Assembly: GCA_030295235.1 (NCBI GenBank)
Contig: AP026134.1
Coordinates: 310,001-374,000, forward strand
Source: Fistulifera solaris
Taxonomy: Eukaryota > Bacillariophyta > Bacillariophyceae > Naviculales > Stauroneidaceae
Length of the DNA stretch: 64,000 bases
Reading direction: 5' to 3'
In this document: positions 55,395-64,000 of the stretch, one piece after another
How positions within the stretch are numbered: position 1 is the stretch's first letter
How the letters are laid out: each line of letters opens with the position of its first letter
The notes under the pieces: model-generated
The model's database searches: none
What the model was told of the DNA's origin: nothing
What the model saw: the letters and a program-made list of their open reading frames with translations, nothing else
Program-made: the position numbers and the translations under genes

Positions 55395-58319
55395 TTAAAG
55401 CGACTCCAATTCAAATGTTCGCGATGCACTGGTTCTTACGGATTTTGATTTCTTTGACTGATTGGTGTCGCCTGTGTCGCTTGGGGTGGCCCCTCGCACT
55501 GCGCTGCTCTCCGTTGAAGGCGGAACAGGAGCCATATCGGTAGTGCTAGTACTGACGGGAACCGAGCCAGAAGACGGCCCAGCGAGCGTGGAGAGGGGCA
55601 CCGCGATTGGTGACGGCATGGTCACACCCGTTCGCTTGCCACTGATAGGACCCAAAACAGGTGGACTGACAGGCGTCGGTACTGAAACAGGTGAACTGAC
55701 AGGCGTCGGTACGGATACAGGCGAGCCCGAGGGAGGCTATGAAAGTAGTTGATGAGTCGAAGAAACGCTTCAGTTTGAAAAGAAATATGATAACAACACT
55801 TACCACTTCAGTGGTTCGATCAAAATCAATGCATTGGGCTTCGCTGGCGCTGCTCGCTGAAGCAGCAATGAACTGGCAAGGAAGACCATCATCTGCAGTC
55901 CCAAAATTGTTGGCAGCGCTCACAGACCCTCCATCTAAGACGACAACGGTTCCTACTCCTGTGAAATCATTGCCCACGAAGTTTGTGTTTGAGACTTCAA
56001 CACTACTTCCTTCAACAGCCAAGATTGCGTATCCAAACCCCTCCGCACTGTACGTGTTGTCTTCGAAGCGGGAATTCTGCACAATGATGTCGTTGTAGCC
56101 GGATGAGGTCGTGACGACGCCGCGCGACTTATCAGTCACAGGTAATCCTTGAGCGTTATTTCGGAATGTCGTTTCGACAAGACGTACTTGCTGGCGCGGC
56201 AAGGAGGGATCAATCACAGGAGTTGGGACCGCGGGGGTGGGTAGAACAACAGGCGAAGAGATAGGGGTGGGTAACGCCGGGGTAGGGATCGTGATAGGGC
56301 TCGCAACGGGGGTGGGGAGTGCCGGCGTAGGTAACGCCGGGGTAGGGAGCGCAGGAGTAGGCAATGCCGGGGTAGGGAGCGCTGGGGTGGGCAAAGCTGG
56401 GGTAGGCAAAGCTGGGGTGGGAAGCGCCGGGGTCGGAATAGCAACAGGGCTCGCGATGGGGGTTGGAAGCGCTGGGGTTGGTAATGCAGGAGTCGGAATA
56501 GCGACAGGGCTCGCAATGGGCGTTGGTAGTGCAGGTGTGGGTAAAGCAGGAGTGGGCACCGGAGCCGCCACTGGCACAGGTCCAGCAATAGGTGGCGCAA
56601 CCGGAGTAGCCACAGGTGCAGCGACACAAACGTCATCACAAACATTGTTGAAGATACTGTCAAAACCTACCGAAGTACAGGAGCAATCACCAACCATATC
56701 TCCACAAGCATCGTTGCATCCTTTGACGCGACAATCCGTGAACGTATCGCAGTTGTTTCCACTGCACACAGACGTAACCGTGTAAGTGAAATCCCTACCG
56801 GTTCCACAGTACCCAGGGCAAAAGATCTCATCCATGAAAACCGCATCCGTATGCTGGAAGGAATAGGAACAGCCCGGAGGAGTCACGGAAGGTGGGATGG
56901 AATGGTTTTCGTTAACAAAGTCTTCCTGTAGACCGCGACCATGCGGGTTTTCACGAATCTTTTGTTGACGAACGCTTTCCATGACCGTGCCCATGTTGTT
57001 CATTACTACCTGAACGCTGTTCGTCGCTTGTATTTTGCGTACACGACGAGTTGTGGGGGCTGCTACGGGGGAAAGGGGTGGCTCTGTCGAGGTAACCGTG
57101 GGATCCCACGAAAGCAACATTGGACCAATGTTGGTGTGATCCTGGTCATTCGAACGAAAAATGCAGCAAAGTGAGCTCGATGAAAGACACATCTTTATCA
57201 AAAATGTCCGATCCAGCGAATGAACTTTGACCTTACCTCAAAGATGCAATCCTGGAAGGTAATGTCACCCGAGTTATCCAGAACGGCGCCCGCTTGTTGG
57301 GCCATCGCAAAGGTGAATCCTTGAAACCGAGCATTGGTAGCCGGCTGCTGATACAAACTAAACGCCGATATCACTTGCGTTTCACCACCAGTGAGCACAC
57401 AATTGTTACTGACATCTCCATTGGCACCACAGATATAGTGCGTGTTGGTGCGTGCCGTCAAAGGAGCCATGCCGCCCACTAAAGAAGTGCTTCCCGCAAT
57501 GTTGGTAAGAGTTCCAATGTTGTAGACGCGGTTGCTGCAGAGCGAATACGTCGTGACGACTGCCGGATTAGCATTCACAACATCTTGCAGTAACAGCGTG
57601 GTGTCGCTGTAGCAATTGGGAACGTCAATTGTGGGCGTCACCACCGTCGGGACGGAAGGCACGGCGACAGGAGTCGTAATGGGAGTCGAAGGCACCAGCA
57701 CAGGCGTGGTTACGGGCACTGATACGGGGCCCGCCAGAGGAGTCGGCAATGCCACTGGTGCAGTAACGGGGGTCATCACCGGAGCAGGGACAGGGACCGT
57801 CACGGGAGCGGGAACCGGAACCACAACAGGAGCGGGCGCGACGGGAGCCGGACCATCACACAAAATTTCGCAAGCTTCATCGAGAGCGGTGTTAAAGTCA
57901 ATGATTTCCAAGGGCGGACATTCAAGCAACCCGGATGTACATCCAGTAACACCACATTGAATCACCGAACTGCAAACGGCGGTAGCGTCGGTGTACGGTT
58001 TATCGCATTGCGTCGCAATTCGCAGCGTAAAGTCGCGGCCGGTTCCGCACCGACCCGGGCACACCATTTGATCAATCGGATTCGTGGATGTGGGAGTATG
58101 ATTCAAGTCATCGTAATCGCATTCGCTAGGAACAATAAAAGAAGGTAAAGTGTGACCTAATCGACGAGCTTTGTACGAAGCGGTCATCGTTTCTTTGAAC
58201 TCCTCAAAAGCGTTCAGGCGATTCTCCCCCTTGCTGTATTCGGAAAAGGATTGCGTGAATTGTGCCGCATCTGCCGCCGCTCCTAGCCAAAGGCTCAAGT
58301 ATGCGGCCTTCATCTTCAT
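55395..58319 (-). CDS. Secreted Cys-rich, Pro-rich repeat protein with beta-helix-like segments
   Basis: Predicted extracellular protein of about 920 residues. MKMKAAYLSLWLGAAADAAQ is a signal peptide. Two copies of a Cys-rich module occur: CPGRCGTGRDFT...CEILCD (about 58065-57870) and CPGYCGTGRDFT...CDDVCV (about 56830-56620). Each is followed by a Pro-rich linker, PAPV/VPAPV in the first and PTPALPTP in the second. After each linker come segments with the regular inside-outside pattern of right-handed beta-helices, e.g. FQDCIFEDH and IIVQNSRFEDN. The tail is Ser/Thr-rich and basic. Exons are 58319-57237, 57141-55804 and 55736-55395; introns are 95 bases (GTAAGG...CCAG) and 67 bases (GTAAGT...ATAG), both phase 0. 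No frame break occurs. A cell-wall, mucilage or adhesion role is plausible for diatoms but is inference. Confidence 0.8.
56215..56575 (-). repeat. Coding tandem repeat (PTPALPTPA linker)
   Basis: About 360 bases made of short GC-rich units of 15-18 bases that encode PTPAL/PTPIASPVAI repeats in the secreted protein. The units are imperfect copies, and a higher-order block with SPVAIPTPALPTPAL recurs. The length is likely to vary between strains. Confidence 0.75.
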
Positions 58320-59104
58320 AGTTGCTTGTTTGGTGGGTACTTGTAGATAGCACCCGACAACTCTTCGTGTCTAATAATGCCTTCTCGGTTGTGTTTGGAT
58401 TTCGAGGCGATACGAAGGACCTCCGCAACTCCGTTCGATGGAGGACGTAAGTCTAGAATAAGTGCACCCAAGCTGTTTCTTGCCTAGACACACTAGTAAT
58501 TAAGCGCCCGATAGTTCACTTCAGTACTATACTCAGCTTCTGCTTTCCTAAATAAGCGACTTGCAACGGAAATCAATCGGGACAAAAATACGCCAAATTT
58601 TCATTCCGCTTTGGATTTGATACGAGAGAAACAATTCCCGCCTTTCCATTATCGATCCAAGAAAGTACTTCCATGACGTCTGTCACGACATAATATTCAA
58701 TGGAATGTACTAAGACTTGTTAAGTAATTTCCCGACTTAAAGGTAACGGAAAGGCCTGGCGCACCATCCTTGACCGTTTCCATTATTCAAACTTTCACGA
58801 ACAAAAATGACCCTCCCTCCGATGAATTCAGGGCTGCCGCCGAAAAGCCCTTGGATCCATCGGTGATGTGATCGGTGATGTATCTTGATAAGAAGAAATA
58901 GTTTTAAATCACTCTTCGATAATATCGATGATGTTTCGGAGGAATGCGATAATGATTGCTACACGATTGGATGACACTGCCAACATCACGAAACATAAAT
59001 CACCAACGATCGGGGTTCCCGATCGGGTCCTCGACGCTTTCAATGTACTTTTTATAGTAATTGGCTATCCTTTCAGGCTAATACTTCACCGGATTTAACT
59101 GTTA
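58320..59104. other. Intergenic stretch
   Basis: 785 bases upstream of the secreted protein gene and downstream of the carrier gene. A 12-base tandem duplication (ATCGGTGATGTG then ATCGGTGATGTA) lies at about 58859-58882. Nothing else was recognised. Confidence 0.4.
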
Positions 59105-61998
59105 TTATACGATAGGTGCCGATAGTTTCGGACGCGTGACCCACTGCGCCAATTGTTCGTACGCCATCAAGGAGATGCCAAATTGCGGAGCGAGACGAAG
59201 AACACGTGCCGTGCCTCCACGAAAGAACGATCGCCATCCCTCTTGGTGATACATTTTTGTGACGCAGTCTCGTATGCCGCTGTAATAGTAGAGCACTTCA
59301 CCGTCCGGACGAGTAGATTGCAAGCGAGTCTTAATGACATCGGCTGGAATCGTGAGGGCGGCGGCCGGGATCCCGGCGCACGTACCCGCTAACCAGATAT
59401 TGACATTAGTTGGTTGATTAATTTCGGCATCTAGAAAGTGACGGATTGCGGAATACGTAGGAAAGTAAATGGCACTGAACGGTACATCGCGCAATAAGCA
59501 TGCGGTAGCACCGCGAAAGACTCCCGGTAGACCCATTTGCCGCACGATCGATCGGAGTGAAGCTGGTTCGATTGGCGGAACACCACGTTTCTCCAAAAAG
59601 CGATTAGTTTCCCCTTCTAATTGCATATGAATTTTCGTTACTTCCATTGGATTGGTCACGAGCAACTGACAGGCACCGGCGCATGCACCCGCTACCACTT
59701 CGACCCATAAACTAGGTTTCGTGGAGATGCCATTTGCTTCATGACTTTCCCTGTGCGGATCCAGAACTTGCTTGATCAAATCATTCACCTGAATTTTAAT
59801 CAGTTTTTCAGGACCTATTCCGATGAGCTGTGGAGTGAGTCCACGGTAGAGACCAAGAGCTGATTCATGCTGCACGACACTGCGTAAGCAGTGCATCCAG
59901 CTCGATACGATGCTTGTCCTCCTTTAGGCACTGCTTCATTCATCATTCGTGTCTTAGCAAGATCCAGCGGATAAAGGAACAGAGCCCCCATGGAGCTTGC
60001 TACTGCTGTCAGCCAAAAATGCTGTACAAAGTCTTCCATCTTCGCCCTAAAGCTCTCTTCCGTTTCTTTCTCCATACTGACTCGATCATCAAGATGAGCC
60101 GCAGACGAGGCGAAGGTGAGCTTCCCGTCTCGACCAGGTAGCGCTTCCAAGCGTCGCACAAAATCCATTCCACAAACTTCAATAGCATCTTGCGAAGAGA
60201 TGTAACCATCATTATTACGATCAAACAGCGCAAAATGATTTCAACCTGCCTCCGACTGAGCCGTCCACCCATTCCTAGTGCCCGATTCGCTACTTTGAAA
60301 TCATCCGGAGATATGGCACCCTTTTTAATCTCTTCTGCTTGGTCAATTAAATTGCAAATACCCGATAGATTTCCAAGTATTTCTTGAAAGGCGAGAAAGT
60401 CGCCGTATGCAAAGTAGCGCACGCCTGTAATCGTACCAGCGTCGATGTATTGCTCTGAACTACTAGCATTCGTTGAAGGGTTGACTGCACTTTCGGGATT
60501 GATGCTTTTCTCCGCTTTTCTATATATTTCATCCAGTCGGTCTGCGATGCCTTGGGGTAATCGCCATCCACAAGCAGTCGTCAACACCTTGATAAACTCG
60601 TCTGGATCCAAATGATCTTCCACAGAACCTCGCTTCTTCGTATCGATAGCGCGAAGAAACGCTTGCTTTCCGATTTCTCGCTGGAGGTCCATCAAAAACT
60701 GCGAAAAGTGAACCTGACGGATGGATTGCTTCCCGTCTTTACCAAAATATCGTTGAAAGAACTGCGAACTAAGGTCCAGATCAGGGAAAAGAGGCTTGAC
60801 AAAAGAAACAAGATCAGAAAGCATGATCTGACCCTTCTGTCGTTGATCCATCAACAAAAAAGCTACATCTACTTCCGGGTCGGGTCGATCCATGAGCATG
60901 TGGTAAAAGCAAAAATCCTCCAAGTAGACGCGCGGTAGTTCTTCGTAGTCTTTCTTTTGCCTTCTCCTTAAAAAGACGATGTAATGAATTTACAGTTCGT
61001 AAACTGGACATAGGATCCTCGTTTAAGGTACTGGTCGAGTTCCATTTGCGTCGAGATTCCACGAACTCTTCCATGGTCATGTAAAGAACACCATTCTCAT
61101 CAGATCTGGTGGCGCATTCCACGAACCAGCGACTCATCACTTCACTCGGGAGAACATATTCCCAAAAGGCCGTAAAATCGACCACCCAGCACTGCAAATT
61201 CGATCCAGTCTCTGCTTGCGTGGATGCTACGACCGACGCGGAATGCTGTCGCCCGAACAAGAAACCGCCTTCACCAAACAAAGTACCGGGGCCCAGCGAC
61301 GCCGGACGAAAATTTTGTGGCTGATACCACACATCGGCTTTACCGTCGCGCACTACGTACAAAGAGCGTTTGATTCCACTCCGTGGAGACACGGGAGGAT
61401 CTTCCAAAAAATCCGCCGATAAGAAAGTTGTCGCAGCCTCCCGCGCGCGAAGGAAAGGGTTCTTCCACGAACTATCCATGCCACCAAATACAGTCGACAT
61501 TGAATAATCGGATGGCCTTTTTTCATTCTCATCGGGTGACTCGGCCTCGTCATTGTTCGCTATCCGATTTTCCGTCACATCTTTCGTTCTGCTCTCCTCG
61601 ACAGGGGCATTACTACGTTCAAACGACTTGGCATAAATTTCTTCCTCTTCCACATCCGCAGGATCTATTTCAGAGAAGATTTTGGTGGAAGTCCGTTGCG
61701 GTTTTCGATGCAAATCATGTGAACCGTTGTCAGCACGATCTTGTAGGTCGTCATCATCCACACAACCTTCTAAAATAACAATATCTCCCGGATGAAACTC
61801 TTTCAATTCGGCGACCGAGATGAAACGCTCTATTTGACTTTCATCTAAGCAAGCGAAGAAGGGAGACTTTTGAATAGCGAGACGAATCAGCTCTCGATCT
61901 TGTTGATTTTTGAAATGAGAAGGAAAGTAACGCGTTCGCTTGCGCGTCTTGGGCTTCGGTTGCATTTCTCTTTGGGGACTGTTGTTTGCGTCCGTCAT
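59105..61998 (-). CDS. Mitochondrial carrier (SLC25) with EF-hands and N-terminal cNMP-binding fold
   Basis: About 965 residues. The C-terminal third (60020-59105) is a complete SLC25 carrier with three signatures: PLDLAK (about 59965), PMEVTK (about 59650) and PADVIK (about 59330). The middle (60920-60150) is an EF-hand region like the Ca2+-sensing half of aspartate/glutamate carriers. One canonical loop, DRNNDGYISSQDA, lies near 60200. The N-terminal third (61998-61140) is a cyclic-nucleotide-binding fold: SPFFACLDESQIERFISV, FHPGDIVILEG, LYVVRDGKADVWY and FGEGGFLFGRQHSASV, with an acidic insert of about 130 residues inside it. The Arg that binds the cyclic phosphate in active family members aligns with His. 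Frame slips near 60960 (one T extra), 60228 and 59900 (one short) are bridged by continuous homology. The family exchanges metabolites across the inner mitochondrial membrane. Confidence 0.83.
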
Positions 61999-62444
61999 GT
62001 TTAGCCTTAATGAGCGTCAAAATAAATCCAGAATGTGTGCAGGTAAAGATGAGCTTTAATCAATGTTCGTTGTGAATAATATACAACACTCTGTTGGAAC
62101 CTTTTGCCTCGACGCATTTTTGTGTTTGACTTCGAAGTCTTTTACACCTTGGCGGATGATGATGATCCGGATGGAAAAACATAATTACCGGTACGACTTT
62201 GTCGAAATTTTGCTCATCGAAAAGATCCTGAGTACAGTATAGTACAGTGTGGGAACATATATTGGCATTAGCGAGGTGAAACGGCTCTAAATAAATAGCA
62301 CAATAACATCCTCGCGCCATGACGAGGATTAGGATGAGGATGAGGACGACGAGGACGAGTTTTTATTTCTTGCGCATCATTGGATGGCCTGATCTTGCTT
62401 TTCTTGTGAATAAATCGTATAACCTGCATAAACATCTCTTTAAA
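61999..62444. other. Spacer between divergent genes
   Basis: 446 bases between the carrier gene (-) and the secreted protein (+). A GAGGA-rich purine patch (62322-62358) lies 90-120 bases before the start codon. The upstream open frame to 62319 begins at an earlier ATG but would bury the signal peptide. Confidence 0.4.
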
Positions 62445-63317
62445 ATGAATCTGAACACACTGAAACTCCTTTTCGCCGCAACTATCGGGGCCAACGCTTC
62501 TCTCGTCGATGTTATTGACTTCAAAAGCATTAACAGTCAGCTCCAGAACGAACAGAGAGACTTGCAAGGTATTTGCGACACCATTCTTCGAAATGTCCCC
62601 ATTTTTAAAGGGTGCACCTGTGAACTGCAGTTCTTACAAAACACCGCCACAATCAGTTGTGACGATAAATGCCAGGGCTGCTCACGAACCGAAGACGTTT
62701 GTGTGGTGGGCTCGTTCGACGCGACGATCGCAGTGACTACTCTCGAAGTGCAAAGAGTTGCCTTCCGGGTTGAACACAGCGGAGATGATAGTAGTCAGCG
62801 CACGTTGCGGCTTGAAATAGTTGAAGGAGCAAACCCTGGTTGCAGCACATTCATCAATAATGTGAAATGCTCGTCCTGTACCTTGAGCACCACCAACATT
62901 GATCTCAGTGCCAACTGCATTGATGCCGTCCATGACTGCCGTAACATTGGTTTTGGCCGCGTGGATGGATGCGACTTGACTGCTTTGCGAGCTCTTCCTT
63001 CAGAAAATCCATTCAGCGTTTTGACGAGCGATGTCCTCTTTCCTCTAGAGACTTGTCTAGCTCAGGATGGCGCGCCAGCTCCAGCACCAGTTCGAGCACC
63101 CGTTCCAGCTCCGGTTCGAGTCCCCGTGCCCGTTCCTGCCCCTGTTCGACCACCCGTTCCAGCTCCGGTTCGTGTTCCGGCACCTACTCCCACATTATCG
63201 GGAATTCCGCCAAAGAAAACTCCGCCAACTAACAAGGAAAAAGATCAATTGAAGCTTTTCAATTTTGATGCCGATAGAGGTGGCCTGAAGCGCAAGCTCA
63301 AGAGCGCTCGGGGCTAA
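62445..63317 (+). CDS. Secreted Cys-rich protein with PAPV repeats
   Basis: Start chosen at ATG 62445 because MNLNTLKLLFAATIGANA is then a proper signal peptide; 290 residues. The body has about 14 Cys in pairs (CDTIL, CTCELQFL, CDDKCQGC, CSSCTL, CDLTAL), consistent with disulfides outside the cell. The C-terminal part is a PAPVRAPVPAPVRVPVPV linker (about 63075-63190) and a basic end rich in Lys. The linker type and Cys-rich head resemble the larger gene at 55395-58319, so the two may belong to the same cell-surface set. No frame break and no intron. Confidence 0.75.
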   Translation: MNLNTLKLLFAATIGANASLVDVIDFKSINSQLQNEQRDLQGICDTILRNVPIFKGCTCELQFLQNTATISCDDKCQGCSRTEDVCVVGSFDATIAVTTLEVQRVAFRVEHSGDDSSQRTLRLEIVEGANPGCSTFINNVKCSSCTLSTTNIDLSANCIDAVHDCRNIGFGRVDGCDLTALRALPSENPFSVLTSDVLFPLETCLAQDGAPAPAPVRAPVPAPVRVPVPVPAPVRPPVPAPVRVPAPTPTLSGIPPKKTPPTNKEKDQLKLFNFDADRGGLKRKLKSARG

Positions 63318-64000
63318 TCTAATAGATACAGCTTTCCAAGGGGAAGGTTCAATGGCCGATCATCATATTTTTGTATGCGATTATAGCATAAAGCGGTATT
63401 AACAGTATTATTTAGTGTTCCTTGTGACGGAATCCACTTTCAAACTCTCTAAGGAAAGCAGCATAACACTGACTTGATTTTGAAACTAAACTTATCAAAT
63501 GCTTTATGCTAAAACGCGTTCAAGGTTTTTTCTTCCATGCTTCATCAAAGACCGATGCAAATTTAACATTTTAAGCGAAATATAAGCATTTATCATTTTT
63601 GTGTTATCGCTATTTTTATGGAGCAAAGCGCATTACCTGGTAGTGGTAGGTGTCCATCACCATCACCCATCATGATCGAGTTTAAGTGTACAAGGACGAC
63701 TTCGAATCAAAATTATGTCAATCCCGGACAATCTCTCACAAATCCTTTGTAGAAAGATATTCTGGTTTTAAACTTTATTGTATTCCAATAAGAATAAGAA
63801 AAGGGGCGTGTCATCTGCTTCCATTCTTGTTGTCGCTGTGGATGACTTAAATGCAACACAACGCATTACTTGTAGATGTCCAGTATGATTTGACTCCGGG
63901 GTGTTTTTGTTAATGTGAATTGTTTCAGTCCCGGATATTATTCACGAGTGTAAATTAATTACGGGGTACTCCGTATTATTTATCTCTAACCGCATCGCTA
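63318..64000. other. Intergenic stretch at window end
   Basis: 683 bases without a recognised gene. CGCATTAC(C/T)TG...TGTCCA occurs at about 63630 and about 63862. A CCCGGA-containing motif recurs at about 63724 and about 63931, in the same order and at a similar distance, so a degenerate direct repeat may be present. Confidence 0.35.

Follow-up and report, generated by a model that had tools for sequence, protein, structure and literature searches.

The minus strand between positions 59105 and 61998 of the window raises the question of whether a mitochondrial carrier, EF-hands and a cyclic-nucleotide-binding (CNB) fold are joined in one protein of the diatom Fistulifera solaris and, if so, which input such a protein would sense. 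The window is the whole stretch of 64,000 nucleotides that was analysed; it corresponds to C14:310001-374000 in a genome set of 51.7 Mb and 61 contigs. A counterpart of the window was found on contig C13, with the same order along most of the window and ∼76–91% DNA identity. F. solaris is described as an allopolyploid whose chromosomes form 42 homoeologous pairs (PMC5935921, excerpt), and the pairing of contigs C13 and C14 fits this allopolyploidy.

One reading frame encodes a CNB fold, EF-hands and a mitochondrial carrier

Read along the minus strand, the gene at 59105–61998 presents the CNB fold first, followed by the EF-hand region and the mitochondrial carrier. In the window it consists of four open pieces in three frames (60814–62016, 60009–60989, 59815–60240 and 59105–59923, all on the minus strand), and the three frame changes are located within ∼60952–60989, 60230–60240 and 59896–59923. 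The C13 counterpart (L009:2158-5040:-, P0001) is intact, being a single ATG-started frame of 960 codons without a stop or an intron. The protein analysis was based on this C13 copy, with the window pieces serving as comparison. Within the one C13 frame, Pfam matched all three parts, which bears out the sequence-only reading that the CNB fold, the EF-hands and the carrier belong to a single chain.

Conceivably, the three frame changes within one gene could mark the window copy as a decaying pseudogene, leaving the C13 copy as the only working one. The matched pieces of the window copy, however, contain no internal stop and few amino-acid changes, and the distribution of gaps between the two contigs fits sequencing noise on both. 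In well-aligned stretches with long frames, 32 of the 57 gaps between the contigs were single-base gaps; of the frame-breaking gaps (n = 39), the window had 20 and C13 had 19, a rough count, as the long frames are not all genes. This even spread makes assembly or sequencing noise the likelier cause of the breaks in the window. We therefore regard the window frame breaks as probably due to assembly noise, and decay to a pseudogene as rather unlikely.

That two adjacent genes or an assembly joint stand behind the three frame changes, and that the fusion protein does not exist, is highly improbable, since the frame on C13 is unbroken, the first window frame spans the CNB together with the beginning of the EF-hand region (residues 1–345), and none of the three window breaks lies at the CNB/EF border. 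Likewise, the idea that the CNB part is a gene of its own, ending before the EF-hands, appears to be contradicted by the uninterrupted C13 frame and by the window CNB frame, which extends to approximately residue 345, well inside the EF-hand region. The fusion of CNB, EF-hands and carrier is real.

Other genes of the same assembly may be broken in a similar manner, by single-base length differences on both contigs. Silicon transporters, which identify the source as a diatom, were detected in the same genome (PF03842, best 3.5e-222), and several of their copies were likewise in pieces or contained stops. Long Pro-Val/Ala repeats occur in the proteins encoded by both neighbours of the fusion gene, at 57198–58319 (minus strand) and 62319–63317 (plus strand); the reading frame of the latter is open throughout in the window and is interrupted in its C13 copy. 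No Rfam match was obtained within 58000–64000.

The carrier domain looks like an aspartate/glutamate carrier

The carrier, with its three repeats, occupies 59123–60024 on the minus strand (residues 655–955), and Pfam Mito_carr (PF00153) matched the C13 protein in three stretches (3.4e-61). In an alignment to the ADP/ATP carrier 1okc, contact point II was occupied by RD and contact point III by Arg; two Lys were assigned to contact point I only through an alignment to a human AGC1 sequence. The residues at all three contact points were the same in both copies. This is the set given for the aspartate/glutamate carriers AGC1 and AGC2, namely two Lys (I), RD (II) and Arg (III); the glutamate carriers are without Arg at contact point III (PMC6769469, excerpt). 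When compared with the carrier domain of human AGC1, the diatom carrier displayed 42% identity and scored 244 bits, and the best carrier in the PDB, UCP1, scored 84 bits. The next-best carriers of the genome showed ∼31% identity and at most 66 bits; thus, no second AGC was seen among the 48 of 108 candidates that were scored.

The carrier and the EF-hand region together look like the aspartate/glutamate carrier type, which goes beyond a generic calcium-sensing carrier. Aspartate and glutamate would then be the candidate substrates to be exchanged, and the protein would presumably reside in the mitochondrial inner membrane in the corresponding orientation. The amphipathic-helix domain at the C-terminus of animal AGCs was absent from the frame, which has just 8 further residues beyond the last carrier match. 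Since neither this domain nor the calcium site of EF-hand 2 (see below) was found, the protein should not be filed as a three-domain animal AGC.

A single canonical loop is retained in the EF-hand region

The EF-hand region, which is related to the N-domains of aralar and citrin, spans 60037–61116 on the minus strand (residues 291–650), and two of the frame changes of the window copy fall within this region. Pfam EF-hand_8 matched an EF-hand pair on the C13 protein (6.3e-10). A PDB search with the EF part returned the citrin/aralar N-domain structures 4p5w (4.1e-9) and 4p5x (1.4e-6) as the best two of 39 matches. This match was strongest over EF-hands 2–5 and weak beyond, and the alignment to aralar/citrin was gapped over EF-hand 2. 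In aralar and citrin, EF-hand 2 is the sole calcium site (PMC4250520, excerpt). The corresponding loop of the diatom protein is degenerate, the best one there fitting 4 of 6 canonical positions, as judged from the sequence of the C13 copy only. The sole loop that fits all 6 positions comprises residues 589–600 (60187–60222, minus strand), is present in both copies and is situated late in the EF-hand region; a 6/6 loop was obtained in 0.35% of shuffles. Its last position is Asp, not Glu, so that it may bind magnesium.

At the other end of the region, the CNB passes straight into the helix that matches EF-hand 1. The last CNB helix (residues 282–291 in the model described below) corresponds, in the aralar alignment, to the helix preceding the EF-hand-1 loop; the pLDDT of this joining helix was only ∼57.

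The N-terminal domain is predicted to adopt a CNB fold

The first half of the CNB lies at 61750–61899 (minus strand; residues 34–83) and the second half at 61117–61377 (minus strand; residues 204–290), the latter including the PF00027 match and the phosphate-binding cassette (residues 237–252). Both halves aligned in register with 14 further CNBs from the same genome. Pfam cNMP_binding (PF00027) matched the C13 protein with 3.2e-6 and 27.5 bits, which is exactly the curated cut-off (27.5), and the CNB piece of the window scored above this cut-off with 29.6 bits. In a PDB sequence search, the CNB part matched single CNB chains with values down to 1.9e-5 (3ocp, PRKG1) and multi-CNB kinases with E-values down to 1.2e-13, the latter being sums over repeated CNB domains, with an i-E of 0.012 for the best single stretch.

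Between the halves, in the loop connecting beta strands 2 and 3, lies an acidic insert (61378–61749, minus strand; residues 84–203) that is predicted to be disordered. On C13 it has 120 residues, including 26 D+E and 16 K+R; with slightly wider bounds its length is 125 residues for C13 and 129 for the window copy, which contains 31 D+E. The insert noticed inside the CNB fold in the sequence-only reading was thus confirmed, at 120–129 residues depending on bounds and copy.

To model residues 1–330, a 16-row alignment of CNBs that we had chosen ourselves was used, which biases the model toward a CNB fold. The core was predicted with confidence (pLDDT 85–94 over residues 31–80), and the insert had a pLDDT of ∼38–52 over most of its length. 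When Foldseek was run with this model, the best matches were CNBs of PKG I (8.8e-9), target TM values of 0.85–0.90 were reached with single CNB chains, and the best 50 of 1252 matches comprised structures of PKG, PKA regulatory subunits and HCN. A model of residues 1–650 made without an alignment had a mean pLDDT of 34.8 and was set aside. The modelling predicts that the N-terminal domain adopts a CNB fold.

The CNB is under selection

The two gene copies were compared codon by codon. In the predefined CNB halves, 2 codons were changed and 29 were silent of 137, as compared to 66 changed and 127 silent of the 797 other codons counted (Fisher p = 0.0012). In the insert, 16 codons were changed and 17 were silent of 120 (p = 0.0002 versus the CNB halves), and in the carrier 14 were changed and 54 were silent of 296, the difference from the predefined CNB halves being not significant (p = 0.087). 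Both changes in the CNB halves affect the helix that joins the CNB to EF-hand 1, at residues 287 and 289. The CNB core (residues 34–83 and 204–286) showed no amino-acid change in 133 codons, with p = 0.009 versus the carrier for a core boundary that was chosen after the two changes had been seen. There were no residue differences between the copies in the cassette region. The low share of amino-acid changes in the CNB halves (2/137 versus 66/797) indicates that the CNB is under selection. On this codon comparison, the constraint on the CNB is no weaker than that on the carrier, which disfavours the idea that the CNB is a useless relic.

Candidate ligands of the CNB

Within the cassette, G238 and E239 were invariant in the 16-row alignment, and the Gly-Glu pair is thus retained. 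Residue 248 (codon 61243–61245, minus strand), which takes the place of the phosphate-binding Arg of most CNBs, is His. This alignment of His with Arg had already been pointed out in the sequence-only reading and was found to be the same in both copies. Pfam detected 55 CNB stretches in the genome. According to our own reading of the residues, the 38 stretches that were fetched from the 53 other matches listed comprised 24 with Arg, 3 with His and 11 with another residue at this position. That 14 of these 38 were without Arg suggests that ligand-free CNBs may be common in this genome, and the 3 with His indicate that the Arg-to-His change is not unique to the fusion. His in place of Arg also occurs in CNBs on contigs C17, C18 and C54 (L040, L042 and L065), and on C17 and C18 this CNB adjoins one with Arg.

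The genome is rich in class III nucleotide cyclases, with 72 matched PF00211 stretches, and in Phaeodactylum the cAMP level is reported to change with CO2 (cited in PMC3727952, excerpt). A cyclic nucleotide is, tentatively, a plausible candidate for the ligand of this CNB.

A loss of the ligand, after which the CNB would have stayed on as a constitutive part of the carrier with a structural role or a role in binding other proteins, is quite possible, if short of likely. It would be in line with the Arg-to-His change in both copies, with the insert within the fold and with the above-mentioned number of Arg-less CNBs, three of them with His. In the CNB-A domain of PKG I, the R177Q exchange abolishes the response to cGMP. 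A solved structure of this R177Q variant (7mbj) was among the Foldseek matches. However, the Gly-Glu of the cassette that contacts the ribose was kept, the cassette region is identical in both copies, and His is still able to carry a charge.

We consider it unlikely that the ligand is of another kind than a cyclic nucleotide, as it is for the CNBs of trypanosomatid PKA, which lack the Arg and bind purine nucleosides (PMC10959531, excerpt). Like the diatom CNB, these CNBs carry polar residues in place of the Arg, but the critical change described there is from Ala to Glu at the positions equivalent to RI-alpha 202/326, where the diatom CNB has Gly (PMC10959531, excerpt). A nucleoside-type pocket of the known kind, for which Glu is required at this position (PMC10959531, excerpt), was accordingly rejected.

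A proposed mechanism of regulation

Among mitochondrial carriers, regulation by calcium is described as confined to the AGCs and the ATP-Mg/Pi carriers (PMC6283063, excerpt). In animal AGCs, EF-hands 1–3 form a mobile calcium-responsive unit that opens and closes the way to the carrier, the switch is completed by the amphipathic C-terminal helix, and the N-domain faces the intermembrane space (PMC4250520, excerpt). Returning to a CNB with a ligand, we lean towards the view that the diatom protein is an AGC-type carrier (SLC25A12/13 type) with a regulatory region rewired to the CNB.

Specifically, the CNB appears to be fused onto the EF-hand-1 part in such a way that its last helix is also the first helix of EF-hand 1, and we infer from this arrangement that the two are coupled through the shared helix. 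A ligand bound to the CNB would then move this helix and, hence, the mobile unit of EF-hands 1–3. In this manner, the CNB would take over from the lost switch formed by EF-hand 2 and the C-terminal helix. If the N-domain is located in the intermembrane space as in animals (PMC4250520, excerpt), small ligands from the cytosol would be able to reach the CNB. The late canonical EF-hand could provide a second input, for calcium or magnesium. The suggestion of the sequence-only reading that metabolite exchange would come under two second-messenger inputs is conjectural, as there is only one canonical EF loop, the EF-hand-2 site is degenerate and the Arg of the CNB is missing.

As a speculative extension, which we deem less probable than not by a wide measure, diatoms may have swapped the calcium switch of the AGC for a CNB switch. 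A nucleotide-type ligand, for example one tied to CO2 and cAMP, would be sensed in the intermembrane space and would gate the malate-aspartate shuttle directly, with the helix shared by the CNB and EF-hand 1 serving as the lever. The analysis suggests a metabolic gate that is controlled differently from that of the animal AGC.

An AGC-type carrier with an EF-hand scaffold, a degenerate EF-hand 2, no C-terminal helix and a conserved CNB would imply that the regulatory region can be rewired to respond to a different input. With such a protein, the gating of an SLC25 carrier by a CNB could be tested directly, and the coupling between signalling and the redox and nitrogen metabolism of diatoms would become easier to study.

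Comparison with known carriers and CNB proteins

The analysis of the fusion covered one species. Collections of prokaryotic genome contigs and of viral contigs contained no relative of the whole protein or of a 64-residue carrier stretch. Among the open-licence PMC papers listed, none was found that joins a mitochondrial carrier, a CNB and an EF-hand, although domain-architecture databases may list the fusion.

The closest counterparts on the carrier side are human aralar (AGC1, SLC25A12) and citrin (AGC2, SLC25A13), with which the diatom protein shares the contact-point residues and to which its EF-hand region is related. It differs from both in the extra CNB at the N-terminus and in lacking a canonical EF-hand-2 loop. 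The ATP-Mg/Pi carriers (SCaMC/APC) are also described as a gene fusion of an EF-hand domain and a carrier, and have four EF-hands (PMC6283063, excerpt); by contrast, the best PDB matches of the diatom EF-hand region were AGC N-domains, and the carrier domain of the diatom protein has contact residues of the amino-acid carrier type. The regulatory subunit of trypanosomatid PKA resembles the diatom protein in having a CNB without the phosphate-binding Arg, but the Glu of its ribose pocket is Gly in the diatom CNB (PMC10959531, excerpt). The best matches of the N-terminal domain, in sequence as well as in predicted fold, were the CNBs of PKG and of PKA regulatory subunits. In contrast to these, the diatom protein carries an insert of ∼120–130 residues and His in place of Arg, and has a transporter instead of a kinase.
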